A program made the position numbers and the translations under genes. 64,000 nt of DNA, taken from assembly GCA_949152475.1 (NCBI GenBank), contig OX424563.1, forward strand, positions 531,001 through 595,000, in the 5' to 3' direction. Numbering within the stretch: position 1 is the stretch's first letter; each line of letters opens with the position of its first letter. This document shows positions 2,262 to 64,000 of the stretch, one piece after another. The notes under the pieces are model-generated. The model had not been told where the DNA came from. It saw only the letters and a list, made by a program, of their open reading frames with translations, and did not search any database. This DNA is from Terebella lapidaria (taxonomy: Eukaryota > Annelida > Polychaeta > Terebellida > Terebellidae).

Positions 2262-5200
2262 CTGAAAGGTCAAGGTCAAAATCTGAAAGGTCAGATCTCG
2301 TAAAGTCAGAGCCTAGTCAAAAGGCGAAAGCTTGGAAGGTCAACGTCAAAACACATACAGGTGTACATGTAAGTATGTCATTATTGATGGGACGATCATC
2401 GACTCTAGTCGAAAGTTAGTCGTTTGCTATGAAAATTCAAGCGCTCAATTATATTTAGAGCTCGATTTTCATCAATGCGCTAAAGTACAATAGTTGCTTT
2501 TTGATCTATTTCGTACCCATCTGCCGGGTGCTGTGCATTTCGTACCAACAATTATTTGGATCCACGCATGTACTTAACGAAGGGCGAATGTTATGATTTG
2601 GATCGAATTGAACGGGAGTGCGAAGTGTTTGGTTGTGAGCACTGGGTGGGTACGATTAATTAACTGTGTAACAAAACCATGCAACTGCCGCGCTGAAACG
2701 TTCGTTAGGAACGGTCACGTGATCTACAAAGTCCACTTGCGAAGACACCGTTCGCGGAAGAACCGTTCGCGGAAGCACGATTGCGGAAGCATCATCAGCG
2801 GAAGCATCGTTCGCGGAAGAACCGTTCGCGGAAGCACGATTGCGGAAGCATCGTCAGCGGAAGCATCAGTCGCGGAAGCACCGTTCGCGGAAGAGGAGCC
2901 TTCGCGGAAGAACCGTTCGCGGACGCAGTCTTCACCACGTGGAGAAGAGTGCGGAAGATACGTTCGCGGACGAAGATGCGCGCGCAGCCACCCTGGCTAT
3001 ATAAGGGAGAGCGGACGGCCGCTCTGAGAGCACTGCAACAGCGACATCGACCGTGGGGAGATCGTCACCGCCACAGCCAAGGGACTCGACGAACTCCGTG
3101 CGGACGACTCCTTCTTCAGGGCCTTAGAGTCAACCGGGATTTAGACCGACTACCTGGAGAAACCATTCGACTAAGCGGGACGGGAAACTTCAACGGGAAG
3201 GGACAGAGAGACGCCGCCGGCTAAGAACTCTTTTTAGTTGTGCCCTCGTGCACTATTTATTTTTGAAATGTGATCATACAGTGCTCCATGTCTGAACTTC
3301 ATATTTGTACGTCACGTGGGTGACCAGCCATACAATTGTAAGTTGATTTGATGTATATAAATCTTCAATTTATTTACATCTGAGTTGCTTCTTGCCTAAG
3401 TGAAGCCGGTGAGCTACGGAGTGATGATACACCAGCGTTGGGGGACACCAATTTAGTGACGGCTCTCGAATCACAACGAGCGGGAGTTACATAAAGTCTA
3501 TACGATCAGAGAAACCAGGTTTTTTGGGCCACACCGAAAACAAGTCATTACCAAACGTCACAACTTGGTGCACGTGACCAGGATCCCCGAGGGTCTACTG
3601 CCAGGGAACGAACCTCAGCATCACTCATGTCCGGCGAAAACGACGAAACTGCCCCAGGGAAGACAGGAGGTGAAGAGGAAGACTCTTCGCGGACGGCCTC
3701 ACTTGCGGACGAGGAAGACAGCGGTTCGCGGAAGCCGACCTTTGCGGAAGAGGGAGACGACCGTTCGCGGAAGACGTTCGCGGAAGACGACCGTTCGCGG
3801 AAGACGTTCGCGGACGACAACCGTTCGCGGAAGACGACCTTGGCGGAAGAGGCCGACGACCGTTCGCGGAAGACAACGTTCGCGGAAGACGACCGTTCGC
3901 GGAAGAGCAGCTTCACAGCCAGGGGTAGACGGGACGTTTCGACGAGTGAGGAGCAACCAGGGAGGTCGAGACCTTCCATGGGCCAGTCGACTAGTCAACA
4001 GAGACCCCGGAGCCAGACACCCGACAACCGTTTTCTTTTCAGACACGACTCTGGGTGGCAGCACGATCGAGACAGGGAGAGGTCAACCTACCTTGAGAGC
4101 GTTAGGAGGGGCCCCGAGTTCCGACGAGTGCTGGGACCGGAGTACGTCAATCTGGACGGGGAGGACGGCGAAATCTGGGCGAGGAGGGATCGGCTACAGC
4201 TACCGGAGCAGAGTCCAAGTGTGGCACCTCCAGAGAATGCAGCATTGAGACGGCTTTGGGACCAGTCCCAGCAGCAGTCTGGTGCAACAGAGCAGCAGTC
4301 TGGTGCAACAGGGCAGCGGTCGGGTGTGACGAGTCGACAAACGGGAGTGACTGGAGGACGGGTTACTTGGGCTCCGACCCAAGAGAGCAGCTCGAGAGGG
4401 AGAGGACTTTTCGCGGAAGAGAACATTCGCGGACGAGAGGCATTCTTCGGCGACAGGGACGCTTGCAGCCGGGGATCCTTCGTGGATGAACGGGCTCGTG
4501 GGCGAGGGGGAGTCTTTGGTGACGAGGACGCTTGTGACCGGGGAGGGCCCTTCGCGGACGACCACGTTCGCGGACGAGGACGACTCGCGGAAGAGAGTGT
4601 TCGCGGAAGAGAGGAGTCTTCACCCAGACGGCGGCTCGACGAAAGGAGTGATCCAGGCGACCAATCTTCCTTTCCAGTTTTTCAGAATAGACGGGGAAGA
4701 CCATTCGCGGATGAGCCGGTTCGCGGAAGACTCGCGGAAGATGGCGTTCGCGGACGTGCATCTTTTGTGGAGGGACGTCTCCGAGACATCTTGGCGGACG
4801 AGCCCGTTCGCGGAAGACTCGCGGAAGACGGCGTTCGCGGAAGAGGCCTGTTCGCGGAAGAACTTCTTCGGGAGCTGTTGGCGGAAGAGTCCGTTCGCGG
4901 AAGGTTCGCGGAAGACAGTGTTCGCGGAGGGTTCGCGGAAGACAGCGTTCGCGGAAGAGGGAGGTCTTCACCCAGTCGACAACCGAGACAGCCAGCCTCC
5001 TGGAGAAATCCAGCTTCTATTTCAGTCACCCAGGGAGGCCGGAGACAGCACCCTTTCTCATCATCGGGCGATGAGGGGCCTTCATCTGATGGAGGGACCG
5101 ACAGCAGCCATGGTTACCCAGGACGGGGGAGGAGACCACCGAGGCGGGGACCGCCGCTGCACCGACGAAGCCCTAGGCCGAGACGGAGGCAGGAGGACTC

Positions 5201-8200
5201 GTCGTCCGAGGACAGCACAGTCTGGAATCAGAACGGCAGAAGGAACCGGAAGATGCTGACCCCTGACAAGTTCGATGGGACTTCCATAGAGTGGCCGGTG
5301 TACCGGGCCCACTTTGACGTCATCGCAGAGGTCAACGGATGGAGCAAGCGGGAACAGGGCGTCTACTTAGCCGGGAGCTTGACAGGAGAGGCGCGACGAA
5401 TGCTGACCAGCCTGAGTCCTGCAGACCGGAGGGACATCGACGTTCTGACCGACAAGCTGACCCTACGATTCGACCCTGACTGTCAGGAGGAGTCCTACAA
5501 GGCGACCTTGGGACAGAGAACCCGCAGGAAGGCAGAGACACCCCAGCAGTACGGCTATGAGTTGCAGCGACTGGCCGGCCGTGGTTATCCGGATCTGAAC
5601 TCCGCAGCTCAGGAGGCTATCGCCTTAGACCACTTCTGGAAGGGCCATCCAGATGGGGACATGAAGGTGATGGCGCTCATGAGGAAGATGAAGACCATGG
5701 AGGAGGCCATAGCGTTCGTGACCCAGTACGAATGTGTCAAACCCAAGCCTGGGAAGCCGGTGATGTCCATAGAGTCGGAGGACTCCGAGCCAGCTCTAGG
5801 ACGGGTCCTACAGCTGTTGAAGAACCAGCAGGGAGGCGAGATTACCACCAGTGGGCAGCAGAGCAACCAGCCGAACGTAGCGGGTCTACCCAGACTTCCC
5901 TACTTCAAGGGGCTCTTTGAGAGCCAAGACAGGAAGCTGGATCGACTAATCGAGCTGTGTGAGCAGGTGCTATCCATCAAGCCGAGGGCCGCCACTGCTG
6001 AGAACAAGGGACCAAGCGCTAGGCCGGGACCAGATGACTGTTGGTACTGTGGGAAGCCGGGTCATCGGAAGTACCAGTGTCCAGATCGGCCGCCACCTCG
6101 GACCAAGGAGGAGCGCTTGAGTCGACTAATCGAGGAGATTGGTGAGCGGAACAGTTTGACAGACGAGGTGTCGGAAAACCAGTAGGGCTCATACCAGCCC
6201 CCAACCGTATGGGCCATTGGCAGGTGTGTGCACGGCTTCACAGGCGAGAAGCTCGACGAAGACGTGAAGAACACATTGCCAGGGGGGAATTTTTAGTTTC
6301 ACAGATTTTTAATAGGTTTTTCCGGTGTGCATCCGAAGTAACTGGATGGGCGCAGGAGGAGCTCGAGGATCGAATTCTCGACTATTTGGAGGGCAAGCCT
6401 GTCAACACAGACGGGAGTGCCAATGTACAGCAAACCGATGGAGCCGTGGAGCGTCTAATGCCCCGCGGAGACGTCAAGGAAATGCAGACCGATGGAGCCG
6501 TGGAGCGTCTAATGACCCGCGGAGACGTCGACGAAATGCAGACCGATGGAGCCGTGGAGCGTCTGGGGACCCACGGAGACATCAACGAGGTTTCTGCTAG
6601 CAGCAAGGAGAACCAACAGGTTACAACCTTGAGGCTGGAGGCTGCGAAACAGCAGGGACCCCCCTATGCAACTGAACCACAAGCGGCCGTGAAAGAGGAG
6701 ACGGAGGGCCGGTGGAGCGGAATGACCAAGGGGCCAGCGCAGCAGCTATTGCTGGTGGACGACTCATTACTTATCCGGAGCGGCGGTTCCGAGGGGAGTG
6801 ATTCCCTTAAGACTGACAGAGAGGACCAGGGTGGTGCATCACTGTGGGTGGACGACTCAGTACTTATCCAGGGCGGCGTCCCTGAGGAGAGTGGCAGCTC
6901 TCTTAAGATTGACAGAAATGGCCAGGTGGTGTCGCTGTCAGCCGGTGCCCGAGGCACATTGGCGTGGTATGCGGCGTGCCACGTTATGGGGAAGGCGACT
7001 CGTATGTTGGTGGACACGGGTGCCTCTTCCACCGTTCTGGACGAGTGTCTCTTCGACCAAATGGATGACGAACATAAAGCAATGATAAGGCAGACGAGAA
7101 TAAGGTTACGGGCAGCAACCGGAGACTACTTACAGGTTCAAGGAGAGATGACAGTTCAACTTCTACTGGGCACACGACTCGTGTCGGCAGATGTACTGGT
7201 AGCCAAACTAGGGATCCCGGGAGTGTTGGGGCTTGATGTACTTCAACAGATTGGGGGACAGCTGGATCTGCGTAAGGGCGAGTGGCAGGTGGGCGACACT
7301 ACCGTAGTGATGAGCTCGGGCCACGAGGGCGCCGTCTACACACTGGTGACGGAGGAGACGGTCGTCTTGCCACCCTTTTCAGAGATGATGGTGGACCTCA
7401 AGCTGACAGGAAGTGAGGGAGGAGTTCCGAAGGCCGGCCTCGTGCAGTCCGCAAGAGAGCCGTTGGAGGACGACCCCCTCGTAGTGGGACGAGCCCTGGT
7501 ACGACCCCGAGGACGCCTGGTACCGGTGGTACTTCTGAACGCCGGCGCTGGAGCTTGCACTGTGCTGATGGGGACCATCCTAGCCGAGCTTCACGGAATA
7601 GAGGCCGTGATCGACCTGGGATTTCGTCCCGATGGAGGGAAAACAACCCAGAATGAACCTAAAAGGGAACAGTGGTACCGGGAGGAGAGCGGGAGGGAGC
7701 ATGAGCCCCTTACACCAAACTCCACCAAGTGGCGGAACCGGACGCCTGAGCAGCCCGAAACCAGAGTGCACGCCATGCACGCAGAATCGTCGACGAAGAC
7801 ACCAGAGTGCCCGGAGCATTTAGAACCGCTCCTGGAGGGAATGCATCCGAACTTGACGGAAAAGGAGGTGGAGGTCGTCAGCGATCTCCTTCGACGCCAC
7901 CAGCAGGTCTTTATGGGACCAGATGGGAGGTTGGGCCGGACGTCCCTGGCGAAACACGTCATCGACACGGGAGATCACCCCCCGATCAAGCAGCCTCTGA
8001 GGAGAGCCCCGTACTACCAACAAGAGCTGATCGAGGACGAGGTCGACAAGATGTTGAAAGCTGACGTTGTGGAGCCAAGTGACAGTCCATGGTCGTCTCC
8101 CATCGTGCTAGTGAAAAAGAAGGATGGTGCACTGAGATTTTGCGTCGACTACCGCCGTCTAAATGATGTCACCCGGAAGGATGCGTACCCCCTGCCTCGA

Positions 8201-11200
8201 GTCGACGAGAGTTTTGATACCTTGTCAGGAGGACGATATTTTTCGACGCTAGACTTGGCTAGTGGTTACTGGCAGGTCGAGATGGACGACAGGGACAAGG
8301 AGAAGACGGCGTTCACTACCCGTAGTGGACTCTATCAATTTAAAGTGATGCCGTTTGGATTGGCGACGGCCCCGGCTACTTTTGAACGTCTAATGGAGCT
8401 GGCACTGAGGGGACTCCAATGGAAGCGTTGTCTAATTTATTTGGACGATGTCGTCTGTCTTGGAAAGACTTTCCAAGAAGCCGTGGACAACCTCGAGGAC
8501 GTGTTCCGGAGACTGCAGGCTGCCGGGCTGAAGCTGAAACCCGCCAAGTGTGAGCTGTTTCGACAACAGGTCAACTTCCTGGGCCATGTCGTGTCCGACC
8601 GAGGCATCCAGTGCGACCCTGCCAAGGTCGAAGCTGTAACAAAAATGGTTCCTCCGACCACCTTGACAGAACTAAGGAGCTTCCTTGGGTTCGTGGGGTA
8701 CTACCGCAGATTCATCCCTGACTTTGCCACCCGAGCGGGACCCCTCAACCACCTGTTAAAGAAGGAAGTCAACTACCATTGGAGCGAGGCTCATCAGCAG
8801 GCGTTCGAGGCGCTGCGTCAACCCCTGACCGAGCACCCCCTGCTGGTGTACCCTGACATGGACCAAGAATTTATTTTAGATACTGATGCTAGCGGCTACG
8901 GAGTGGGAGGCGTCTTATCCCAAGTGCAGGACGGACGAGAGCGGGTGATCGCCTATGCTTCCAGAACCCTGAGGGACACCCAGCGGAATTACTGCACCAC
9001 CAAGCGGGAGCTCCTGGCCGTCGTCGGTATGATACACCATTTCAGACATTTCTTGTGGGGGAGAGCGTTCTTACTACGAACCGACCACGCCTCTCTCAAG
9101 TGGCTACTGAACTTTCGGGATGCGGAAGGAATGATCGCTAGATGGGCAGCTCGCATCGCCAGCTACGCCTTCAGGTGTGAGGTCCGACCGGGAGTACAAC
9201 ACGGGAATGCAGACGGGATGTCCAGATGCCGACAGTGCCGGAGACCGGATTGTCCCGCCCCTCGCCACACCACAAGACCCGAAGGAGAAGAGGAGGCCTG
9301 TCCGACTCAGGAGGAGTGTCCCCTACCCCTGGAGGACCTCTCTGACGAGGATCTGCTTCCACCGATCAGCGGAGAAGGATGGAGCCCCGGAGGACCTCAA
9401 GTTAACATCTTGCGGGAGGTCCCTGTGGAGCCCTGGACGGAGGACTACTATTGCGGAGATGGAGTCGGGATATTCCAGATCTGGGAGGTGCGCTGCCAGG
9501 AGGACCCGAGGACGACTACCCAGCCGACCGAGGAATGCCTGCCTGACCGGAGCCCCCCACAGACGGAGGAAGGAGCCAGGAGCGTCTGCAGAACCCTGCA
9601 TCAGCTCCGCCCCTCTGCCTGGGTTTGGTTTCTCCTGATGATGCTCCTCGCACTGCATGGTTTGGGACCGGAGGTTGTGGCCGGAGCAGCGATCGGCGCG
9701 ACGGCCGACGTGTGGATGCGCTGCCGAGAGGAGCCCTTCCTGGACCCATGCCCCAACCCTGTGCTCCGAGATCCAGACAAACAAATGCTAGCTGTCACGC
9801 GGGCTATGGCTACGGGAGGACGCCGGAATCCGATGGAGGGAGCCCCGGAGGCCCAGGTCCTGAATGGTTATTCCCAGGAGGACCTAGTGACCCTTCAACG
9901 AGCCGACCCTGAAGTTGGAGGCATCCTCGGGTGGAAGAATATTTTCACTGAGAGACCTGCATGGCCCGAAGTCAGAACAAAAAGTCAGCAAATGAAGACT
10001 CTGTGGCAACAGTGGGACCAGCTGGAGCTACGTGATGGGCTTCTGTACCGGCGGTACCAAGCGGCTTGCCAGAACGCACCAATCCATCAACTGGTCGTTC
10101 CACAGGTCCTGAGACGCGCCGTCATGAAGGAGGTCCACACCGGCAAGCTGATGAGTCACCAGGGAGTCACCAAAACAGTCCACCGACTAAAAGCGAGAAT
10201 GTACTGGCCGGGTATGACGAAGGACGTGGAGCGTTGGTGCCGGGAGTGCCTGAAGTGTAGTGGGAGAAAGCCGCGACCGGGGCCCAAGTACCACCCCATG
10301 GGAAATCTACCGGTAGGCGATCGGCTAGAAAGGGTGGCCATGGACATTTTGGAGCCTGGAACGATCACCAATTCTGGGAACCGGTATATACTGGTCGTGG
10401 GTGATTATTTCACCAAGTGGACTGAGGCCTACGCTCTACCCAACCATGAGGCTCAGACGGTGGCGGACGTCTTTGTGACTGAGTTCGTGTGCCGCCTGGG
10501 AATGCCAGCCAAGATACACACCGACCAGGGACGAGAGTTCGAGAGTAAGCTTTTCCTTGAGATGATCAAGATCCTAGGAGGGGAGAAGACTCGGACGACC
10601 CCTTATCACGCCAAATCAGACGGGATGGTCGAGCGATTCAACCGGACCCTGCTGAACCTTCTGGCCGTGGTCGTGGACGAGAACCATGACGACTGGGACG
10701 ACCATCTGCCCTACGTGATGGCGACTTATAGAACCTCAGTACACGAAAGCACCGGGTGTACACCATTTCGAATGATGATGGGACGGGAGGCAACCACCCC
10801 ATTGGACCTGAGGTACCGGACGAAACCGGACGATTTGGGAGGACCAGTCCCCGAGTGTGCGTCCGAATACGTCGAATGGGTGAAGGAAGCCACCATACAA
10901 GCTCACGAGACTGCCCGAGAGTGCCTGAAGACGGCTACGGTGCGACAAAAGCGCCATCATGACATAAAATCAGCCGCTCGACATTTTCCGGTGGGCACCT
11001 GGGTGATGTATTGGTACCCTCCAAAGGCTAGACCAAAACTAGGACTAGGGTGGACGGGACCTTATCTCGTTGTGAAGTCTCATCTCGGATGGATGGTGTC
11101 CATACAAGATCGACCCGGTGGCAAGATTAAAGATGTCCACATTGACAATATAAAAAGGTGCTGGTTCACCCCTGAAACCGACGCCTGGATACCCAATCCG

Positions 11201-14200
11201 GACGATGTGACCCCAGTCCGGACCCCCAGTGATGACGAGGGACGAGTGGAAAACAGCGGGAATGCAGTCCAAACGATGTAAACGATGACGGGAGCGTTCG
11301 CGGAAGAACCGTTCGCGGAAGCAGCGTTCGCGGAAGCAGCGTTCGCGGAAGTACCGTTCGCGGAAGCACGTTCGCGGAAGCAGCGTTCGCGGAAGAACCG
11401 TTCGCGGAAGCAAGCGAAAAACGTTATTTCGTTCCACGACAATGCTTTTTCCCCCAGATCCCTGATCCGCGCCTTTTCTATATAAGCAGGCCGGCCTACG
11501 ATTCCGTCATCACTTCAACCATGAACACACCAACTCTGCAGATCATTGAGATACCCGCATTTGCAGACGAAGATTTCGGGGACGTTCCAGATTTCGACTT
11601 GGCTGACTTTCTGCCCCTTGAAGTCGACAAGATGAGCGACCCACCTACCAAGCCTGACCGAAAGCGGGAGCGCTCGAGGAGCCGGGAGCGTCGTGAGGAG
11701 CCCCGAGGAGGTCGACGGTCCCCTGCCCGGAAGTTGTCCACCGAGAGAGGGCGACGCTGGTGCAGCCCCTGCCGGATCCACGTGACGGCATCCAACTTTA
11801 GCCGACACGTGGCGACCAAACACACGCAGAAGGAGGGGCGGCACCTCTGCAAGATGTGCAGCCAGCGATTCGCCCGCCGAGCTGACAGAGACCGGCATGA
11901 GACGTCGCATGCCAGCGGCAACACCCTCAAGCCAGGACGGAGGAGGACGACGACCGACACGCCCGTGTCCGACCCCCGAGATGGTCCGACTACTGTGTCT
12001 GCCCCTGAGCTGAAGACTGTCAGCTTTGCGGCCAGCGGGACGACCAGCTCCACGCCGTCAAGCCCCCGGGAGGACGCCCCCAGGTCAGAGGACGCCCCAG
12101 ACCCCGAGGACGACCCCCCGAATAGCGAAGAGGAACCGGAGTCTCAGCAGGAGCGGAGAGAGGCGGAATCCCCGGAGGCCCCCACCCCCGAGGACGACGG
12201 ACCCCCCGTTCCCAGAGACTCGGCCCCTACCTACAAGCCCCTAGACCTGAGTTGGTACCTCAAGCCCGTTCCGGAGGAGGAGGACCAACTGCGACCGTAT
12301 GTGGAGGGCCTGGGCAGAGCGGTCACTGCCGGAGAGAAGGCCCTGGAGGACCTGGCATCCACGATAGCCATGGGACGACGCCACCTCACCCAAGCGGAGG
12401 CTCGGCTCCAAGCCAAGGAGGAGCAGAGACAGCTCGAGGCCGAGGTGCTGCAGCTGCGAGGGGAGGCCTCTCAACGAGAGAAGAGCCACCGGAAGGAGCT
12501 GCGAGCCCACGTCCGAGAGACCAAGCTGCTCCGGGAACAGCTCCGAGCATATACAGACACTCGAGACAGGCTGGCGGAGACGTCCGAAAGCGAGGTGGAT
12601 CGCCAGTGAAGTGGAGGGAGAGAGCCCTGTAAACAACAGACAGGCAGGAAAAGACGAAGAAGGAGGAAGAAGAGAAAAGAAGAGAGAGAAAGGATCAACG
12701 GGGACGTTGATCTCCAGAAAGGGTGGAGTTGTAACAAAACCATGCAACTGCCGCGCTGAAACGTTCGTTAGGAACGGTCACGTGATCTACAAAGTCCACT
12801 TGCGAAGACACCGTTCGCGGAAGAACCGTTCGCGGAAGCACGATTGCGGAAGCATCATCAGCGGAAGCATCGTTCGCGGAAGAACCGTTCGCGGAAGCAC
12901 GATTGCGGAAGCATCGTCAGCGGAAGCATCAGTCGCGGAAGCACCGTTCGCGGAAGAGGAGCCTTCGCGGAAGAACCGTTCGCGGACGCAGTCTTCACCA
13001 CGTGGAGAAGAGTGCGGAAGATACGTTCGCGGACGAAGATGCGCGCGCAGCCACCCTGGCTATATAAGGGAGAGCGGACGGCCGCTCTGAGAGCACTGCA
13101 ACAGCGACATCGACCGTGGGGAGATCGTCACCGCCACAGCCAAGGGACTCGACGAACTCCGTGCGGACGACTCCTTCTTCAGGGCCTTAGAGTCAACCGG
13201 GATTTAGACCGACTACCTGGAGAAACCATTCGACTAAGCGGGACGGGAAACTTCAACGGGAAGGGACAGAGAGACGCCGCCGGCTAAGAACTCTTTTTAG
13301 TTGTGCCCTCGTGCACTATTTATTTTTGAAATGTGATCATACAGTGCTCCATGTCTGAACTTCATATTTGTACGTCACGTGGGTGACCAGCCATACAATT
13401 GTAAGTTGATTTGATGTATATAAATCTTCAATTTATTTACATCTGAGTTGCTTCTTGCCTAAGTGAAGCCGGTGAGCTACGGAGTGATGATACACCAGCG
13501 TTGGGGGACACCAATTTAGTGACGGCTCTCGAATCACAACGAGCGGGAGTTACATAAAGTCTATACGATCAGAGAAACCAGGTTTTTTGGGCCACACCGA
13601 AAACAAGTCATTACCAAACGTCACAACTGGAAAAAAGATGTCAGAGAGCGTGAACTAAACTACATAATATATCCTACTAATTGACATTATCTAAACCGAT
13701 TATTAATCGATCATCGGTTACTTTCATCAAACCGATGATCGATTATGAAATCTAAACTGACTCCCATCACTAGCAGAAACTTATTTCTCTCAAGTGTGTG
13801 TCTGAGCCGAGTAATTTATTTAAATGTTAATATTTACACATCATCAACTTCAAAACACGGTCAGCAGCAAAATAAGCTACTGTTAAAGGTTATTCAGGAC
13901 ACAATGTTTATGGGTAGATGCAGAATTCAGAACTGTACCCGACACAAAACCTGAGTGAACTCACAACACGAACCGATCTACATGAAGAGTGATACTAGAA
14001 AGTATCCTTCAGAATCAACGGTAACTTTCTGTGGAAAGCGCTCAGCGATTCAGTGTTCCACCTTGAAACTGGAGGCAAACACTCCGGCTTGGGTAGCCTG
14101 ATTGAGGGCTTCCTTTCCAAAAAGAATTTGGTTTTTATTTTTTCTCATTTCTCAAACCTCACATGCTGTATCATGCGCTTACGAGACCTCAACAGTAGAC

Positions 14201-17200
14201 ATATTGGGGAAACAACTTCTACATTTTACAGATAACTATGGCTTGGTATGTTTCCTCGATAGAATTTACACACATGAATGCTGTTCAGCCCCGATTGTTT
14301 TGATGGTAGATTTACCTGAACTATGCCAGATATGAGCTGGGAGCTACAAATCATCAGCAGCGGGAACATGTAAACTTGTGGGAATTCCTGTGATAAAGCT
14401 CGAGGCAGATATCTCAGGCAGTTCTTGACCATGACAAATGGGTTGGTGAATCAAAAGGTCACATCACACAAATCTATCTGGCAAAGAACGATAGCCGCCA
14501 AACAGACGTCTCATCATTTCATCAAGAGTTCATAACTTCCTAACGCTAATAAAGATCTACAGCCACACATTCCCTGATGGAAGCTGAGCGAGATATCAAC
14601 ACTGCACGTTACAAGTATCCTCAGATAAATAGACATGTACTAGTTCTGTAGTGGTGACTCTCAACCATAGCTAGGCTCCGTGATATCGCACATGCAGGTG
14701 TCTGTATGCTTCCAACATTGAACAAATCAAGATTGACACACACAAACAAAACTTGATCCAGATCAACTTCAATATTAAAGTTGGAATCAATTTTAAAATC
14801 AGCCAAATTTAGCATTCTTGTTTGTCTCGCAAACTTGAAAGTACATCTCGAGAGAGTCGGGGATATACAGGAAATATGCACAGTTTGACAACAGATACTT
14901 AGAAAATTGCCGTTAATCGTGCATGAAAACAGTGGATAGAGAATGATCGGCCTGCCTGCATTGCCGGTTGCCACAGTATCTAGACAAATACCAATGACGT
15001 CATCAGACTGTGTATAGAACTCGCCCTCAAGGCAGGCCGCTTTGAGGAGAAATTGATGCGAGATTGACTGGCCCGAATTCGAATCTTGATTTGGAAACTC
15101 GATTTAGGCACGTAATACATGTTTTCAGACCCAAATTTGTACGATTTCTATCGCAGAATGAATAAATTTGGTCAATTCTAAAAGTGATTATAGCTTTAAG
15201 TTATGGTCCAGCCCAAACCATAACTTGTTACTACTGAACAACCTACATTTGTATATCAAGTGTAAGCTGTTGCCTAAATCCTGATCAAGATGAATCCTAT
15301 GGTATCATTTCAATCCAGATAGCCTATGTACCATGTGTACATGATGTAATTACCTTGATCCAGATGGCCTATGTTATGTCTTGATCCAGATGGCCTGTTA
15401 TGACATTGATTCAGATGGCCTATCTTATGACATTGATTCAGATGGCCTATCTTATGACATTGATTCAGATGGCCTATCTTATGACATTGATTCAGATGGC
15501 CTATCTTATGACATTGATTCAAATGGCCTATCTTATGACATTGATTCAGATGGCCTATCTTATGACATTGATTCAGATGGCCTATCTTATGACATTGATT
15601 CAGATGGCCTATGTTATGTCTTGATCAAGATGGCCTATGTTATTACCTTCGTCGAGATGGTCTTTGTTATTACCTCGGTCCAGATCTGCTATATTATCCC
15701 TCGATCTGGATAGCCTATGTTTTACCTTGATCCAGTCTATGTTTTTACCTCAATCCAGATGGCATAGCCTGTTCCATACGGACCTTAGATGTTGCTACCA
15801 CAGTCCATGCATGTATTTACCTTGGTCCAGATGGCATACCTTGTTCCATACTGACCTTAGATGTTGCTACCACAGTCCATGCATGTATTTACCTTGGTCC
15901 AGATGGGCCCAAGCTTCAGGCAGCAGATGGAGAAAGACGTCACCTAACAATCCTCCCACCGCAAAACTCAGCAGCAGCTTCAGTCGCGCGGCCGGGGCTG
16001 AAAATACACAATGTCACGCTGTCAGTCAGGTGTCAGGTCAGCATGGTCAGGTGAAAGTCAAACGACAATAGATGCTTTGCAAGAGACGTCATAATGTATT
16101 TATTCTCTTATACTAGTATTTATGATGCCATACTGGACGGCAAAATTCCCAGTGAAAGCACAGCAAAGCATCTATAGAGAATATTGTGAATAGAGTACAG
16201 TGGTGGGTATGTAACAGTATTGTAAAGAGCTGGAGTACATGTACCTGTTTTGGGGGGAACTTCTTGCAATGGTATCTTTAGTGGAATGTACACACAATAG
16301 ACAAGATACATCGTACAGGTAACAGGTTGATAGGACCCAGTATCATGAGTATTACCAAGTAAGTAGATGAACTGATGTAACAAATAATTACGGGTGATAA
16401 GTCACACCTGACAATTCACTCAGTACATCGTGTGATCCTAGTACTAGGCTAGTAGGTAAGAGTATTTGGATAAGTATACACTAGACTGTTCTGTATTCCA
16501 CTCAGAAGTGTTGCCCGTTACATACATTTTAGTACCTATATACAACATGTCATCTCAGTCCATACTATAGTACCAGACTACTGACTTCAGCCATACAAAT
16601 AGTTACATGGGGAATTTATAAATACACATACCACAAGTTCTACTTTATTGGTAGATTGCTAATTACTTAGGACAGCATAGTGATAGTTATCATGTCTAAT
16701 GTCGACTGAGCAGATTTTGATGGACAAGAGCCACTTCCCTGAAGGCATCTAAGATTCAACACATGCTCACAGTCTGCCATGGAGCTTGTTGTAGATATTT
16801 AACAATCATCAATTAAAGTTCTTCCATTTCGTCCAACCAATCAATTAAATGTGTAACCATGGTAACACTGAATTCCAGAGAAAAACCACAGGTGCTGTCA
16901 AGCTTTACAGTGCTCCTGGAGTTAATTATCCCGGACTTGCTGGTGTGTATCAAATCAACATCCCACATGCAGAATCTCAGTCCGCTTTTGTTTACATCGC
17001 CAAGGTCAATACACAAAGGTCAAGGTCATAATGTGGGACAAGGAGCTGGAAGCGTCCGGGAAGTGTGGGGGCAGGGTAGGGAAGGGGAAGGGAAGGCACG
17101 GGTCTCTTAGGAAAACACAGGTTCTCCTCCCTAGGAACTAGTGTTAGTGAGATATGAGTGAGGACTTGAGGCTTGGATTCGTGTACAACATGCAGCAAAC

Positions 17201-17635: not shown

Positions 17636-20600
17636 TCTGGATGTAATACATATCCGATACTGTATTTATCAATATATCTAATAAATGACAAACAACTAAG
17701 AAGAAATAATTTTTCCTTTCATGTGTCTCACTGCAAACTTGTATATTTCAGGTTAACACTTCAGTTTATAAATAAATTAACACGACTGACATGGGATCTG
17801 TGTAACCACCATAGGTCACATGTATCATTAGAAAACAGTTTCCAAAAGCATTTTGTACTGATACAAACGTTTGAACAGCAGTGAAATCTTCTCCATCAGT
17901 AAGACATTTGTGTGTCCATTAATTCTACTGTATATAGAAAATGAATTTACCCCCAAAATGTGTTATTTTATGAGATGCTCACCATGTTAATGGAGATATC
18001 ATTTTGATGATCTATTGTAATAATTTGAGGATACATTATTATGTGATGTGCTGCGTTACATTATGATAAACTTACTGCATACTGCAAATGCTGGGTTGCA
18101 TTATGATGGACTTACTGCATATTACAAGTGCTGGTTTACATGATGATGAACTGCCACAATGTACAGCAAGTGCTGGGTTCCATTATGATTTCAACTCTGC
18201 ACTGTTTATTGAAAACAATGTCCAGAAAATTCCCTCAGGGTCAAAACAGTGATAAGCTAGTTTTTTGTGTGCCATCACCACCCCCTCCCCAACCCTGCCC
18301 CCCAAAACTTTATTTTACCAAAATGTTCAGGTTTCACAATGAAGTTATCTACTCAATCAGCCCAAAAGTCACACAACCAGAAGTACACGGTAATGAGCAT
18401 CCACACCTGATCACCACGACCAGGCCCACTCCCTAGCTCTCGGGGTAACCTGGTCATCTGGCTCCAGGCCCACTCCCTAGCTCTCTGGCTAACCCGATCA
18501 TCTGGCTCCAGGCCCACTCCCTAGCTCTCTGGCTAACCCGATCATCTGGCTCCAGGCCCACTCCCTAGCTCTCTGGCTAACCCGGTCATCTGGCTCCACG
18601 CCCACTCCCTAGCTCTCTGGCTGACCTGGTCATCTGGCTCCAGGCCCACTCCCTAGCTCTCTGGCTAACCCGGTTATCTGGCTCCAGGCTGACTCCCTAG
18701 CTCTCTGGCTAACCTGGTCATCTGGCTCCAGGCCCATTCCTTAGCTCTCTGGCTAACCTGGTCATCTGGCTCCACGCCCACTCCCTAGCTCTCTAGCTAA
18801 CCCGGTCATCTGGCTCCAGGCTCACTCCCTAGCTCTCTCGCTAACCCGGTCATCTGGCTCCAGGCCCACTCCCTAGCTCTCTGGCTAACCTGGTCATCTG
18901 GCTCCAGGCCCACTCCCTAGCTCTCTGGCTAACCTGGTCATCTGGCTCCAGGCCCACTCCCTAGCTCTCTAGCTAACCCGGTCATCTGGCTCCAGGCCCA
19001 CTCCCTACCTCTCTGGCTAACCCGGTCATCTGGCTCCAGGCATACAGCTTGGACCTGGGTCTGATGATAGGCAGCATTTTAGTATGTCAACACACCGTGG
19101 TGTACCTCACATAGACAGAACATGTTACATGTATCTGAGGCGGGCAGAAAGTAGAGGATGTTTACTTACATACTGCTGACTTGCCACATCCTGGTTTAGG
19201 GTTTGTCGAGTGTGATGATCTATCCCAGAACACGCTATTTACGACACAGAACAAACAGCAACTAGGCACTTAGCAATGAGGCCAACATCACAAGTATTAA
19301 TATCCCGGTAAATTGTCTGAGCACTGTTTTCTGGATGGGAGACCTGTCAATGTTTTGTCTTGGTTTGCCAGGATGTCCGAGGACCGAGGGGAGATCCAGA
19401 TGATTGGGGCAGGGGGTGGGCGGTAGGGGGGGGGGGGGGGGAGCTGGAGGGGGGGGGGGGTTGTTGGAGGGGGGGGGGGAGGAGTAAGGGAAGGGTGAGG
19501 AAACTGTCAAGTCACTGGGATCCTTGCCAACTGGATAGGACCATAGGACAAAAATAAAAGTTATGGAAGTCCAGAAAACCCAGTATGTTTCTCTCTGGCA
19601 GCCTCAGTCCCAGAGGAAGCTGTTTATTACATTACAGGATTTCCCGCTATGTTTAGGTCTGTTTAGTTTTCTTCTTTCTGATAACTAAACGTCCTGGTAC
19701 TAATCCAGAGTGACCCCCACCCCCATTCCCCCAACCCCCAGGGGTGAATGGGAGACGGAGCCAGAACTAAACTTGTCCCTATCTCCGCACTTTGCTCTGT
19801 TTGCCGGGAGTCAGTCCACAGTTACTCTGCCAAAATAATAAAGCAACAAAAAGCAGGCATGAAATGAGTCTGATCCTCAGCGTGCAGATCGGCACACAGG
19901 GCCCTAGCTGTGTAGTGGGCTGCTCTGGGTATATCTGGGGATGACAGGCTAATGGTATCAGGATATACACACAGCTAACTGTTGAGAAACCGTGGCAACA
20001 ACAGTCCAGTAGCAGCGGCCGCTGGGAACACACTGTCCTAGAGGATAACAGGGAGTCAGAGGACAGTCAACAGTGCTCTAGATAGGTCTGTCCACCCGAG
20101 GATACCAGACAAACACGGAAGACTGACACGGTTTGACTGACAGTTCAGCCATGGCGGAGCGGGTATGTATGGTATCCCAGACTGGGGGAGTGTCTGCATG
20201 TCCTTGTGTAGGTCTCGCTCTGTGTGAGGTCACTGCTGACTGACTACGCGACAGGCTACAGGGCGGTCACAGGCAGTAGTCAGTGAGCTCTTGTGTTGGC
20301 AGTTCTATGCATGGTTCTTCTGTGTAGTTCAATGTGCTCTCTTGGTGTATTGGGGTGTTCTGAGGTTTTCATGGTGATGATATGCTTTCAAAGTCACAAG
20401 TTTGCTTCAAGTTTTTCTGCACATCACAAACAAATGCAATCTTCCACATATACACTTTCTCTGTTCTAAGCTGTCAATGTTGATCACTTTCATCAGAAAC
20501 CCATAATGGGTTTCTGCTTTCATGGGTATAGCAGATTCAAACGTTCACTTCATGTTTCTCTAGACCATGTACACATAACCTTTAATTCCTGACAGAGGAG

Positions 20601-38516: not shown

Positions 38517-52700
<14,184 letters not shown>

Positions 52701-60446: not shown

Positions 60447-63380
60447 GTACTTGGTTCAGTTTTGTTTTGTGATGGGTCCGATGGGTGATACTAAAAGTCG
60501 TTAACATCTCGTAAACATTCGTGAACATATCCAAAATATCTTGATTGTAAAATTTTTTCATTCACTGATTCAGTTCCGTGGATTTATAATCACAATTCTG
60601 TTGGCTGTTTTTCAGGTTTTTACGGCAGACCTTGGACTTTTGAACAACGCAAGAGACTTTTTCAGAGGTTAGTTAAATTGATTTTTATTTTAGGACAGAA
60701 GGAAAGTTACATGTATTATATGAGCAATTCCATTCATGCCCCGATGTAAATTTATCTCCTGTAAATCTAATCGCAAATGTTTATGTACTTTCACTAAGTC
60801 ATCAACATCTCTTGGAAGGTGCAAGAGTTACTGAATTGTTGCTAAATTTAAAGTTATTTGGTAATGGAAACCATACTTCTGTTCTGCAACATGACCTGAA
60901 TTTTTGTCTCATTCCAGGATGAACAGAATGGGTATGGACACATATCTGTATGCTCCCAAGGATGACTGCAAACACAGAATGTACTGGAGAGATCTCTATA
61001 CTGTGGAAGAAAGTGGTACGATTTATCAATGTTCATGAATAATATACTTGCAATATTGAGACAAACACCTGCTATTTTCTTGAACAAAACCGCACACATT
61101 GAAATAGCCTTTATTAAAGGATTGAAAAATATTGTTGCAGAACAAAGAAGCAACTTGTGATAACAAAGTTTTCTCCCTTGTAGAACACCTGACAAACCTA
61201 GTGAGTGCGGCTGAGGAAGAAGACATAACGTTTGTGTATGCGTTGTCCCCTGGCCTCGATATGACTTACTCTAGTGCTAAGGAGGTCACCAGTCTCAAAC
61301 GCAAACTGGAGCAGGTGAATATCAAGTGGATGAGTAGCTTGCTGTGCATATACATTTTGTTTGTAAACAATAAAAGTTATATGTATGTTCAATGTAAAGC
61401 TGATTTCCCTGAATGCACCTGGCCACTGTACCGAAATCTGATAGCCAGTGTTGTAATTTGCCCTGAATTGTACAAATTGATTTGGTTTTTTTTTTGGCTG
61501 CAGGTGTCAAGTTTTGGGTGCAAGGCGTTTGCTCTCCTTTTTGATGACATTGACATCGAAATGTGTGAGGCCGACAAAGAAATATTCCAGTCGTTTGCTC
61601 AAGCACAAGTGTCCGTGACTAATGAGGTCTACCAACATCTGAACCAACCCGAGAAGTTCTTGTTTTGCCCTACTGGTTCGTATCCAGTCAAGTACTGCAT
61701 GTGATTGCATTTGATGTCACATGATGAGGATGGTTCTAGTTGGCTTTGTTTAGTGACTGTAATTCCCCTGCAGTTTTCAATATTGTGATATGATTGTTTG
61801 ATCTCCAGAGTATTGTGCTACACGAGCCGTACCGAATGTTGGCAACTCAGAATATCTGAGCACGATAGGCTCTAAGCTGCTTGCTGGGATCGACATCATG
61901 TGGACAGGACCAAAGGTCGTCTCAAAGAAAATATCCATTAAGTCAATCGAGGAGCTGGCAGAAGTGCTGCGGCGACCACCCGTTATCTGGGACAACATTC
62001 ATGCCAACGATTACGACCAGCGCAGACTGTTCCTGGGTCCATACGAGGGAAGGTCGTCGGAACTGATCCCGTACCTGCGAGGTGTCCTAACTAACCCAAA
62101 CTGTGAATTCGAGGCCAACTTTATAGCTATGCACACACTGGCACAGTGGAGTAAATCAAACACAAGTGGGACCAAGAAAGACTTCATAATCAGTAAGTTG
62201 CATTTTGCTCATGACTGAAAACAAAGTGTCAGTATGACTTATTTCTTAAGATGCGAAGTTGTAAGTTCTGTATGTTTCCTGTGTTTCATTCTGTTTTCAA
62301 TTGCTGTTACAGGTGAAAGCCCGGTCAGTGCCGATATCAAGCTGGAAACAGAAGGAGAGTATTCCACAGATGAGGATACACCTATCCATTGTCTGTCCTC
62401 ATACCGACCCAAAGTCGCACTTCACGACGCTGTCCGTGAGTGGAAGTCCATCTTCTATGATGAGTACAGTCCGAGCATCAAGAACATGAAGCTGGTGGCC
62501 GCTCCGGTAAACCTGTCTACGCTCCCGACTCAGGAGTCTGCGACAATGACCTCATCGCTCCAGGATGGCATTAACTCCGTGGTGAATGACTCGTACCTCC
62601 AACCCACCAGTGGCGAGCCCGTCAACAGTCTTTTAGATCCCGGAGAGGAGACTGACGATGAGTCTGGCTTCGGGACTCTGCCTGAGCCCATGGACTGTGC
62701 TGCATCGTCCAGTGGAATCAGCATCTGCAGTGGTCTCTCAACCGAATATACAGAGTCTCTGGACTCGTTTGGGGAGGACAAGGCATCTTTCTCAGGGAGC
62801 TCCAATCTTCCGTCTAGTGCCAGCAATTGCCAATGTGAGAAAAGTGAAGGTGTTGAGACTATGCAGGTGGATATTGACAGTAGTGGCCTCAATGGTTTCA
62901 ACCCCAAACTACTCAATCCTGCAGAAACTCATGGTAAAAGTCAGTCAGCCAGCATTCCAACATTGTGTTCATCTGTCGTTGACAGCGTCGGCTCCACGTC
63001 CATTGAGCCTCTACCCCTGGACAGTGTGACACGTCTCACAGAAGAGGAGTTGCATTTCTTCGTGCAACTCTTTTACATGCCATTCGAGCATGGTTCCAAA
63101 AGTGTAGAACTGTTGAATGAATTCCACTGGCTCAAGATATCCGCGGTGTGCCTCTCCAGTTCCCCGAATAACGACGATCTTGCCTCGGCAGAACAACAAA
63201 CCGCCATCGAAGAGTGGAAGTCTCGAGCCACGGCATTCTGCTCCAACCTGCAACAGATGTTTGACGTTTTCAAGAAGCTGTGCTCAATTCCAAACAAGGC
63301 ACTGCTCTACGACTTGTTCCCATATGTTTGGGACATCTCTCTGGTGCTGAACCAGATTCATACATTCGTCAGTTGGCTAG
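60380..63380 (+). CDS. OGA: Protein O-GlcNAcase, first seven coding exons (partial gene)
   Basis: Exons: 60380-60446, 60616-60667, 60918-61015, 61184-61314, 61504-61675, 61809-62192, 62313-63380, spliced in frame to 657 residues and continuing past the right edge. It is a nucleocytoplasmic GH84 enzyme that removes O-GlcNAc from Ser/Thr. The catalytic domain starts at [14 protein letters not shown]; the catalytic Asp pair is D130-D131 in [17 protein letters not shown] and [10 protein letters not shown] complete the active-site wall. Exon 7 holds a Ser/acidic disordered linker, then the helical stalk starting LTEEELHFF and ending VSWLG. The ATG follows an in-frame TGA 12 nt upstream. The N terminus before the domain is only about 15 residues, shorter than in vertebrates. 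The C-terminal acetyltransferase-like domain should lie beyond the window. Confidence 0.95.
60616..60667 (+). CDS. OGA: OGA exon 2
   Basis: [16 protein letters not shown]. Acceptor TTTTTCAG|GTTTTT, donor CAGAG|GTTAGT. Confidence 0.92.
60918..61015 (+). CDS. OGA: OGA exon 3
   Basis: [16 protein letters not shown] through LYTVEES. This is the YAPKDD segment conserved in GH84. Acceptor ATTCCAG|GATGAA, donor GAAAGTG|GTACGA. Confidence 0.93.
61184..61314 (+). CDS. OGA: OGA exon 4
   Basis: [13 protein letters not shown] through [11 protein letters not shown] and LKRKLEQ. Acceptor CCCTTGTAG|AACACC, chosen over the upstream TTGCAG at 61140 because it restores the conserved frame. Confidence 0.92.
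61504..61675 (+). CDS. OGA: OGA exon 5 (catalytic aspartates)
   Basis: [19 protein letters not shown] through KFLFCPT. Acceptor GGCTGCAG|GTGTCA, donor CCTACTG|GTTCGT. Confidence 0.94.
61809..62192 (+). CDS. OGA: OGA exon 6
   Basis: [12 protein letters not shown] through [13 protein letters not shown] and [11 protein letters not shown] to KKDFII. Acceptor ATCTCCAG|AGTATT, donor TAATCA|GTAAGT. Confidence 0.94.
62313..63380 (+). CDS. OGA: OGA exon 7 (linker and stalk)
   Basis: Residues 302-657. A long unstructured Ser/Glu/Pro linker, then stalk helices with [19 protein letters not shown] and [13 protein letters not shown]. Acceptor CTGTTACAG|GTGAAA, donor GGCTAG|GTATGC, phase 1. Confidence 0.93.
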
Positions 63381-64000
63381 GTATGCGTCCTACCGATGGC
63401 CATGTTTTCCCCACAACAGCTGTCGACCAACACCTTGAACCTTGTCTTAACTCCCCAAGATCTGGCATGGCCACAGTAATTCAGTGGTCAAGATTCTTTG
63501 ATAATTTTTGTAAAAAGTGATCTAATGGCAGGGAAGGTCAATTTGTCAGTGGAGCCTATCAAACTAGCATAATCTCTGGGATCAGTTGATCCAGTCTGGC
63601 GGTTGGCAGAATGAAACGCAATGTCATGTTGGAGGCAACTATTGGGTTTTTGTTCTAAACAGTAGTGCTTGTTTATTCAACTTGCTCATCACTGTGATTT
63701 AGGAACACGTGGTGAAAGATCTAATCTTAGTATGCCTGTTTTCCCACAATCTTTGTATCACTTCCAAGAAAATTTACGGAAAGTGTAAACCTTCAGAAAA
63801 TCAGTATATCTTTCCATTGCAATTCAAGTTGATTCAACAATCAGTATTCACTAAATTGAACAAAAACCCATGGGCCATATGTGAACTTTCAGAGAGAGCT
63901 AGAAACTGAGGATTTTTTCAGTTAATATCACTGATGCCTTGCTTGAATGGAGACTACTTGGTGAAAATTTATGAGGAGATTATTTTTCAAATGATGCACA
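63381..64000. other. OGA intron 7, no further exon seen
   Basis: The reading frame stays open to a stop at 63518-63520, but similarity to OGA ends at 63380 and a good donor lies there. The next exon was not found before the window edge. Confidence 0.6.

Follow-up and report, generated by a model that had tools for sequence, protein, structure and literature searches.

A Ty3/Gypsy-Type Retrotransposon of Terebella lapidaria with a Putative Zinc-Finger Protein That May Bind the Element's Own Repeated Motif

Structure of the Element

A stretch of 64,000 nucleotides from the annelid Terebella lapidaria (contig OX424563.1, positions 531,001 to 595,000 of the forward strand; this whole stretch is termed the window, and positions are counted from its first base) contains a long terminal repeat (LTR) retrotransposon that carries, in addition to gag and pol, a third open reading frame (ORF3) with two predicted zinc fingers and dozens of copies of a short motif, TTCGCGGAAG (Table 1). 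The two LTRs are identical, and the target site duplication ACTG is present at both flanks (2663–2666 and 13626–13629), which indicates that this intact-looking element was probably inserted recently. The Pfam domains of pol, each above its cut-off, occur in the order gag-asp_proteas, RVT_1, RT_RNaseH, Integrase_H2C2, and rve. The location of integrase after RNase H, together with TG...CA termini and a target duplication within the 4–6 bp range, is as expected of a Ty3/Gypsy-type element (Metaviridae). The zf-CCHC match in gag (20.2 bits) is slightly under the Pfam cut-off (20.8).

In an earlier examination of the sequence alone (the original prediction), eight copies of the motif, a TATA octamer (TATATAAG), and an ORF of 362 amino acids had been located between pol and the 3′ LTR, and the same motif and octamer had been noted in the LTR; all of these features are present.

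Table 1. Features of the retrotransposon and of its candidate regulatory sequences
Feature	Position	Strand	Basis or remark
LTR retrotransposon, whole	2667..13625	+	899-base identity of repeats plus flanks; TG...CA ends and duplication read from sequence
5′ LTR	2667..3562	+	
U3 array; 14 near motif copies, 6 of them exact, GCGGA in all	2751..2972	+	Spacing mostly 14–15 bases
LTR TATATAAG	2998..3005	+	Sequence match; 3′ LTR copy at 13061
Candidate splice donor CCG/GTGAGC, 5′ LTR	3408..3409	+	Last exon base 3408; rank 2 of 472 GT sites in 2990–12730
gag	3627..6185	+	ORF; CCHC knuckle
gag motif copies, 18 exact, 38 at ≤3 mismatches, three reading frames	3686..4957	+	
pol	6209..11281	+	ORF; protease, reverse transcriptase, RNase H, integrase by Pfam
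Internal array, eight exact TTCGCGGAAG	11297..11410	+	Motif count
Candidate splice acceptor CCCCCAG/A	11457..11458	+	Last intron base 11457; this acceptor and the one at 11489 are fourth and fifth among 857 AG sites
Internal TATATAAG	11479..11486	+	Sequence match
ORF3, 362 amino acids, putative transcription factor	11521..12609	+	Sense ORF between pol and 3′ LTR
Acidic, F/L-rich N terminus, residues 1–40	11521..11640	+	Net charge −10
Two C2H2 fingers, residues 81–101 and 110–130	11761..11910	+	Pattern match, predicted fold
Predicted long helix, possible coiled coil, residues 254–361	12280..12603	+	Predicted local distance difference test (pLDDT) score 86–97 in ten-residue blocks 261 to 360
3′ LTR	12730..13625	+	Sequence identical to 5′ LTR

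The ORF3 Protein

In both length and codon usage, ORF3 has the appearance of a genuine gene. When positions 11290–12620 were dinucleotide-shuffled 500 times, no ATG-initiated ORF of 362 amino acids arose (the longest had 322), and when the six frames of ORF3 were scored by gag-C and pol codon usage, its own frame was the sole positive one (+0.13; others, −0.25 to −0.55), the score being a blunt measure that gives −0.02 for the N-terminal part of gag in its true frame (flank control, −0.39). The predicted protein has an acidic N terminus, a basic stretch (residues 41–77; net charge, +9), two C2H2 fingers, and a long helix whose best heptad register has large hydrophobic residues at 45% of a and d positions (21% overall). 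This layout is as originally described, with the helix corresponding to what had been called a coiled coil. An ad hoc rule of our own (net acidity of at least 8 plus at least 8 of W, F, Y, L, and M) was applied to 2,759 tiles of 30 amino acids from gag, pieces of pol, and ORF3, and the nine positive tiles all fall within ORF3 residues 4–43; in composition, this N-terminal region resembles an acidic activation domain. A second in-frame ATG is located at positions 11632–11634 (Met38, with A at −3), and initiation at this site would remove most of the acidic N terminus and could produce a shorter form that has no activation domain.

Both fingers match the C2H2 pattern, and a strand–strand–helix fold is predicted for them with moderate confidence. 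In the single-sequence AlphaFold model of ORF3 (mean pLDDT, 64), the two units span approximately residues 78–98 and 101–130, and the finger piece modelled alone has the same elements (mean pLDDT, 63). No Pfam family matches ORF3 at its curated cut-off, the zinc-finger families included (the best, zf-H2C2_2, scores 16.5 bits vs. 40), and a search of NCBIfam gave nothing relevant. In a sequence search with the finger piece, ZNF524 is nearest (E = 5e-5), followed by Tramtrack (E = 0.0014). An envelope-like (errantivirus-like) nature of ORF3 was considered and rejected: the maximum 19-residue hydropathy is 0.52, which by this crude test indicates no membrane segment, in agreement with the original prediction. 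In a viral contig collection, 14 pattern stretches were obtained for relatives of ORF3 and nine for relatives of the reverse transcriptase piece, none of them confirmed, and paired-motif scans picked up a single viral contig plus 56 from bacteria or archaea, which were judged from their titles alone to be chance matches.

The Repeated Motif and Its Core

The window has 38 exact copies of TTCGCGGAAG, every one of them inside the element and on the + strand (mean of 100 shuffles, 0.02). Each of the two U3 regions has 6, gag has 18, and the region before ORF3 has 8, the last being spaced at 15, 15, 15, 15, 14, 15, and 15 bases. When up to three mismatches are permitted, a limit that favors invariant positions without choosing which, the number of sites in one U3 (14), the N-terminal half of gag (38), and the internal array (8) is 60; this count was made without requiring GCGG, which is lacking in four sites, and a profile that required it gave 57. 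Across the 60 near copies, neither GCGGA nor the final G varies except at the C, which is retained in 56, and the base separating GCGGA from the last G is A in 46, C in 10, G in 2, and T in 2, whereas the leading TTC is more variable. The core of the motif is GCGGA.

The orientation of this core is strongly biased in the motif-bearing regions (+ vs. − strand: LTR, 16 vs. 0; N-terminal part of gag, 34 vs. 0; gap before ORF3, 8 vs. 1), and its frequency elsewhere is near or below expectation (pol, 9 vs. 7.9 expected; far flank, 8 vs. 13.0 expected). A simple expectation-maximization motif search recovers TTCGCGGAAG from U3 combined with the internal array, or from gag; from U3 alone, it gives the degenerate CnGnnGAAGCAT (26.6 sites) instead.

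It is highly improbable that the motif is an RNA-level signal (for packaging or Gag binding) or a minisatellite that has spread without a DNA-binding partner. The sense orientation of all 38 copies and the presence of other tandem repeats in the window would be consistent with such an origin, but the regular spacing of 14–15 bases ahead of the two TATA boxes is better suited to DNA sites, the flanks and the 5′ third vary around an invariant core, and no Rfam family matches positions 2600–13700.

The copies within gag, which the original prediction did not mention and which are the most telling of the additional observations, occupy all three reading frames and are translated as SRK, FAE/LAE, or VRGR. 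Their codons are uniform: SRK is encoded by TCG CGG AAG in six of six cases, the alanine of F/L-A-E/D by GCG in 17 of 17, and the R-G of V/I-R-G-R by CGC GGA in nine of nine, the codon-family shares in gag-C and pol being 12% for TCG, 21% for GCG, and 10% for CGC. The N-terminal part of gag contains 26 copies of TTCGCGGANG, compared with a mean of 1.25 (maximum, 6) in 2,000 recodings that kept the peptide and followed gag-C and pol codon usage, and a mean of 4.1 (maximum, 9) in 2,000 shuffles of its own synonymous codons. These controls suggest that DNA, not peptide, is conserved in gag. Because the core is invariant while adjoining bases vary, and a single 10-mer recurs across the three frames, a constraint on the motif at the nucleic-acid level is likely.

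Partial Agreement Between the Predicted Finger Site and the Motif

The residues at finger contact positions −1, 2, 3, and 6, numbered backward from the first zinc histidine, are T/S/N/R in finger 1 and R/A/D/R in finger 2. A Zif268 finger variant with R/A/D/R binds GCGT with a dissociation constant of 0.035 nM, GCAC with 0.068 nM, and GACC with 9.3 nM (PMC3002361). The finger piece of ORF3 also matches the R/A/D/R Zif268 peptides in the sequence search (E = 0.005), but this alignment covers their fingers 2–3 and misses the altered finger 1, and the R/A/D/R identity therefore rests on the comparison of contact residues. Module tables list RSDDLVR for GCG and QSSNLVR for GAA (PMC5260015), and TSGNLVR for GAT (PMC9705829, with the helix row taken in reverse relative to the target row, the sole reading that reconciles modules used twice). 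Finger 1 agrees with the GAT module at positions −1, 3, and 6 (T, N, and R). It also has SNFxRH in common with finger 1 of Tramtrack, which presumably reads GAT.

Zinc fingers read DNA in antiparallel order. The predicted ORF3 site is GCG-GAT, and the core that is observed reads GCG-GA and then A or C; five of six bases coincide, and the mismatch falls at the one freely varying base. This fit is suggestive supporting evidence, short of proof, and the view of ORF3 as a DNA-binding regulator of its own element, put forward in the original prediction, gains support from it and from the acidic N terminus.

Recognition of the motif by a host transcription factor, with ORF3 serving some other role, is unlikely, but has some basis. 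GCGGAAG is like an ETS-type core and TTCGCGGAA is like a STAT-type palindrome, and host zinc-finger proteins are known to bind arrays in retrotransposons. However, 10 of the 60 near copies have GCGGAC, which would not be expected of the ETS core GGA(A/T), five degenerate U3 copies (of three types) do not have the TTC half, contrary to a STAT site, and the fingers of ORF3 itself predict five of the six core bases.

Expression of ORF3: Internal Promoter or Splicing

Five copies of TATATAAG are present in the window, compared with a shuffle mean of 1.47 (two of 100 shuffles reach five), and the number expected on the + strand of the gap between pol and ORF3 is about 0.003 (by arithmetic from the shuffles). 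In this gap, 69 bases separate the end of the internal array from the octamer. An initiator-like A is located at 11512, 33 bases past the start of the TATA sequence and nine bases upstream of the ORF3 ATG. This start codon has A at −3 and would be the first one downstream of 11512. Within the same distance range, the LTR TATA lacks any match to this initiator consensus. As in U3, the array is accompanied before ORF3 by CTATATAAG, the sole stretch outside the motif that the two core promoters have in common (alignment score, 18; 200 shuffles, mean 15.1 and maximum 23). The idea that the internal promoter is a duplicated piece of U3 was rejected, as the similarity beyond the motif is limited to CTATATAAG and the alignment does not exceed shuffles.

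Alternatively, ORF3 may be expressed from a spliced 5′ LTR mRNA with no internal promoter, the TATA sequence being part of the 3′ splice site; ORF3 protein might then still bind the arrays. The candidate donor and both acceptors rank highly (Table 1), the second acceptor (11489) overlaps the TATA stretch, and the ORF3 ATG is the only ATG from 11458 to ORF3. In addition, env and other ORF3s are usually expressed in this manner. The ORF3s of bdelloid rotifers are reported to be typically produced from spliced messages (PMC5408684). Splicing, however, leaves the eight-copy array and the TATA sequence before ORF3 unexplained, and an LTR start near 3030 would place ATGs at 3268, 3288, and 3351 in the first exon. 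Moreover, the ranks derive from a simple matrix by which the top-scoring sites of all, including one better donor and higher-scoring acceptors, are inside gag and pol. A spliced LTR message is to be taken seriously as an alternative; expression by splicing alone is considered rather unlikely, and the internal promoter and a spliced LTR message may both be in operation. The internal promoter of the original prediction is thus plausible from the array, the TATA sequence, and the initiator-like A, but is not established, given the splice signals and the absence of an initiator match at the LTR TATA.

A Possible Self-Regulatory Circuit

The chances are about even that this young, intact-looking Ty3/Gypsy-type element encodes its own sequence-specific transcription factor, with ORF3 protein dimerizing, binding GCGGA sites, and activating transcription. 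ORF3 protein would enter the nucleus via its basic stretch and dimerize via the long helix, and its fingers would bind GCGGA-core sites, with GCG contacted by finger 2, and GA together with a loosely specified base by finger 1. The acidic, F/L-rich N terminus would recruit the transcription machinery. With GCGGA arrays located upstream of the LTR TATA, upstream of the TATA just before ORF3, and inside gag, ORF3 protein could raise the levels of the genomic RNA as well as of the mRNA that encodes it. In addition, the large number of sites may hold the chromatin of the element open. The motif copies deep in gag suggest a role in chromatin or anti-silencing as well. Alongside the established anatomy, the motif counts, the conservation of the motif in gag beyond the needs of the peptide, and the partial agreement of predicted and observed sites, we infer dimerization, binding, activation, the internal start site, and feedback, the last including the positive loop through two promoters put forward in the original prediction.

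Several points weigh against this circuit. The code predicts GCGGAT, whereas the commonest site is GCGGAA, and an equal fit (at least five of six bases) is reached by chance in 4.4% of all hexamers and in 17 of 256 (6.6%) GNNGNN hexamers. An R/A/D/R finger binds GCAC nearly as tightly as GCGT (PMC3002361), and finger 1 has 11 residues, not 12, between Cys and His. Structure searches with the whole ORF3 model and with the finger model found no significant match, a result that says little because the quality of the models is modest. The resemblance of the N terminus to an activation domain was scored by an ad hoc rule. The gag copies are non-independent, having spread by in-frame duplication, and tandem duplication thus accounts for part of their identity. 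Finally, the candidate splice donor in the 5′ LTR and the candidate acceptors in the gap offer an alternative route for ORF3 expression.

LTR retrotransposons are generally considered to depend on host factors for their transcription. More tentatively, and at somewhat less than an even chance, the element may possess a private circuit, in which a self-encoded two-finger activator is combined with dozens of GCGGA sites in the LTRs, before its own gene, and in three frames of gag, where they override codon choice; an animal Ty3/Gypsy element would then have independently invented the strategy seen in VANDAL transposons and foamy viruses. If so, the gag copies would clearly exemplify a protein constrained by regulatory sites, and, given the dense sites and a readable correspondence between fingers and motif, co-evolution between the element and silencing would be directly testable, as contact residues and motif should change together across related families.

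Comparison with Known Systems

The foamy-virus transactivator Tas (Bel-1) is not known to be a C2H2 protein, whereas ORF3 is predicted to have C2H2 fingers and a long helix. Tas binds the LTR and an internal promoter and feeds back on its own expression (PMC3185757), and the likeness lies in an accessory DNA-binding transactivator 3′ of pol with an extra promoter upstream, both putative in the present element. The foamy-virus internal promoter is inside env, whereas no env-like ORF exists here between pol and the 3′ LTR, and both promoters of the present element have one obvious repeated motif in common. No homology of ORF3 to Tas emerged from the Pfam search, or from the structure search for viral matches, neither of which was a direct comparison with Tas.

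VANC proteins of Arabidopsis VANDAL transposons have demonstrated anti-silencing activity, and their motifs are mainly non-coding (PMC5735166). As in that system, an element-encoded protein occurs here together with a short motif arrayed densely in one orientation (the + strand has all 38 exact copies). VANDAL, however, is a MULE-type DNA transposon, whereas the present element is an LTR element with reverse transcriptase and integrase, and its motifs are also found in gag. ORF3 protein might likewise act mainly against silencing, coating the element via its dense same-orientation motifs and removing repressive marks, and not as a classical activator. The observed/expected ratio of CpG, which is 1.76 in the U3 array and 2.1 in the internal array compared with 0.59 in the flank, would accord with this, but the arrays lie directly upstream of both TATA boxes, the N terminus resembles an activation domain, and the placement of motifs in gag differs from the mainly non-coding VANC motifs; a mainly VANC-like role is regarded as unlikely. 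As it has no env and is not a VANDAL transposon, the element is placed in neither the foamy-virus nor the VANC system. On the best reading, which is one of analogy, ORF3 would work like foamy-virus Tas or plant VANC, and is a homologue of neither so far as compared.

In the plant Ty3/Gypsy elements Grande and Retand, too, the interval from pol to the 3′ LTR contains an accessory gene, with its own promoter or with tandem arrays nearby. Grande gene23, whose product is nuclear, has its own promoter (PMC7264820), and Retand TRP28 is predicted to bind DNA, with about half of the elements having tandem arrays in the same region (PMC11963269). These genes are antisense, and TRP28 has a domain of unknown function, whereas ORF3 is a sense gene of the C2H2 type whose predicted site partly fits the array; neither paper, in the text consulted, claims that array and protein are linked. 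Among animals, LTR elements of bdelloid rotifers have non-envelope sense ORFs after pol, but these encode esterase, exonuclease, coiled-coil, or membrane proteins, and the words "zinc" and "promoter" are absent from the text consulted (PMC5408684). Among the entries listed in a literature search, a zinc-finger activator was described for none of the animal LTR elements, which is weak evidence of absence, as subscription papers and Repbase reports were mostly outside its scope. Accessory ORFs, their own promoters, and nearby arrays are thus already known elsewhere, and the present element differs in having a sense C2H2 gene whose predicted site partly fits the array. The resemblance to foamy viruses that was originally noted holds for layout only, and the arrangement at this site has precedents in plants.

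Other Features of the Element and the Window

From 6146 onward the pol frame has no stop codon, which gives a 40-base overlap (6146–6185) with the end of gag in the −1 frame; no classical slippery heptamer was noticed by eye, and a separate ATG for pol is present at 6209. A hydrophobic segment in pol (9623–9679; 19-residue hydropathy, 1.78) is located between RNase H and integrase. A hairpin of eight base pairs with a GGGA loop (12693–12712) lies just 5′ of the purine-rich stretch adjoining the 3′ LTR, and the surrounding 61-base region has a predicted stability of −14.8 kcal/mol (z, −3.07; two of 200 shuffles equally stable). Both LTRs contain a second TATA-like stretch, TATATAAA (3354–3361 and 13417–13424). 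AATAAA is absent from positions 2600–13700, and TATAAA may therefore act as the poly(A) signal instead.

Outside the element, tandem repeats occur at 15344–15667 (27-base period) and 18288–19159 (44-base period). A minisatellite at 46886–48900 is open in three overlapping frames of 603–659 amino acids on one strand, which reflects its repeat structure and is not evidence of a gene. Exons of an O-GlcNAcase gene, which point to an animal host, are located at 61132–63520 (NAGidase domain, E = 7.8e-17; O-GlcNAcase stalk region, E = 4.8e-26).
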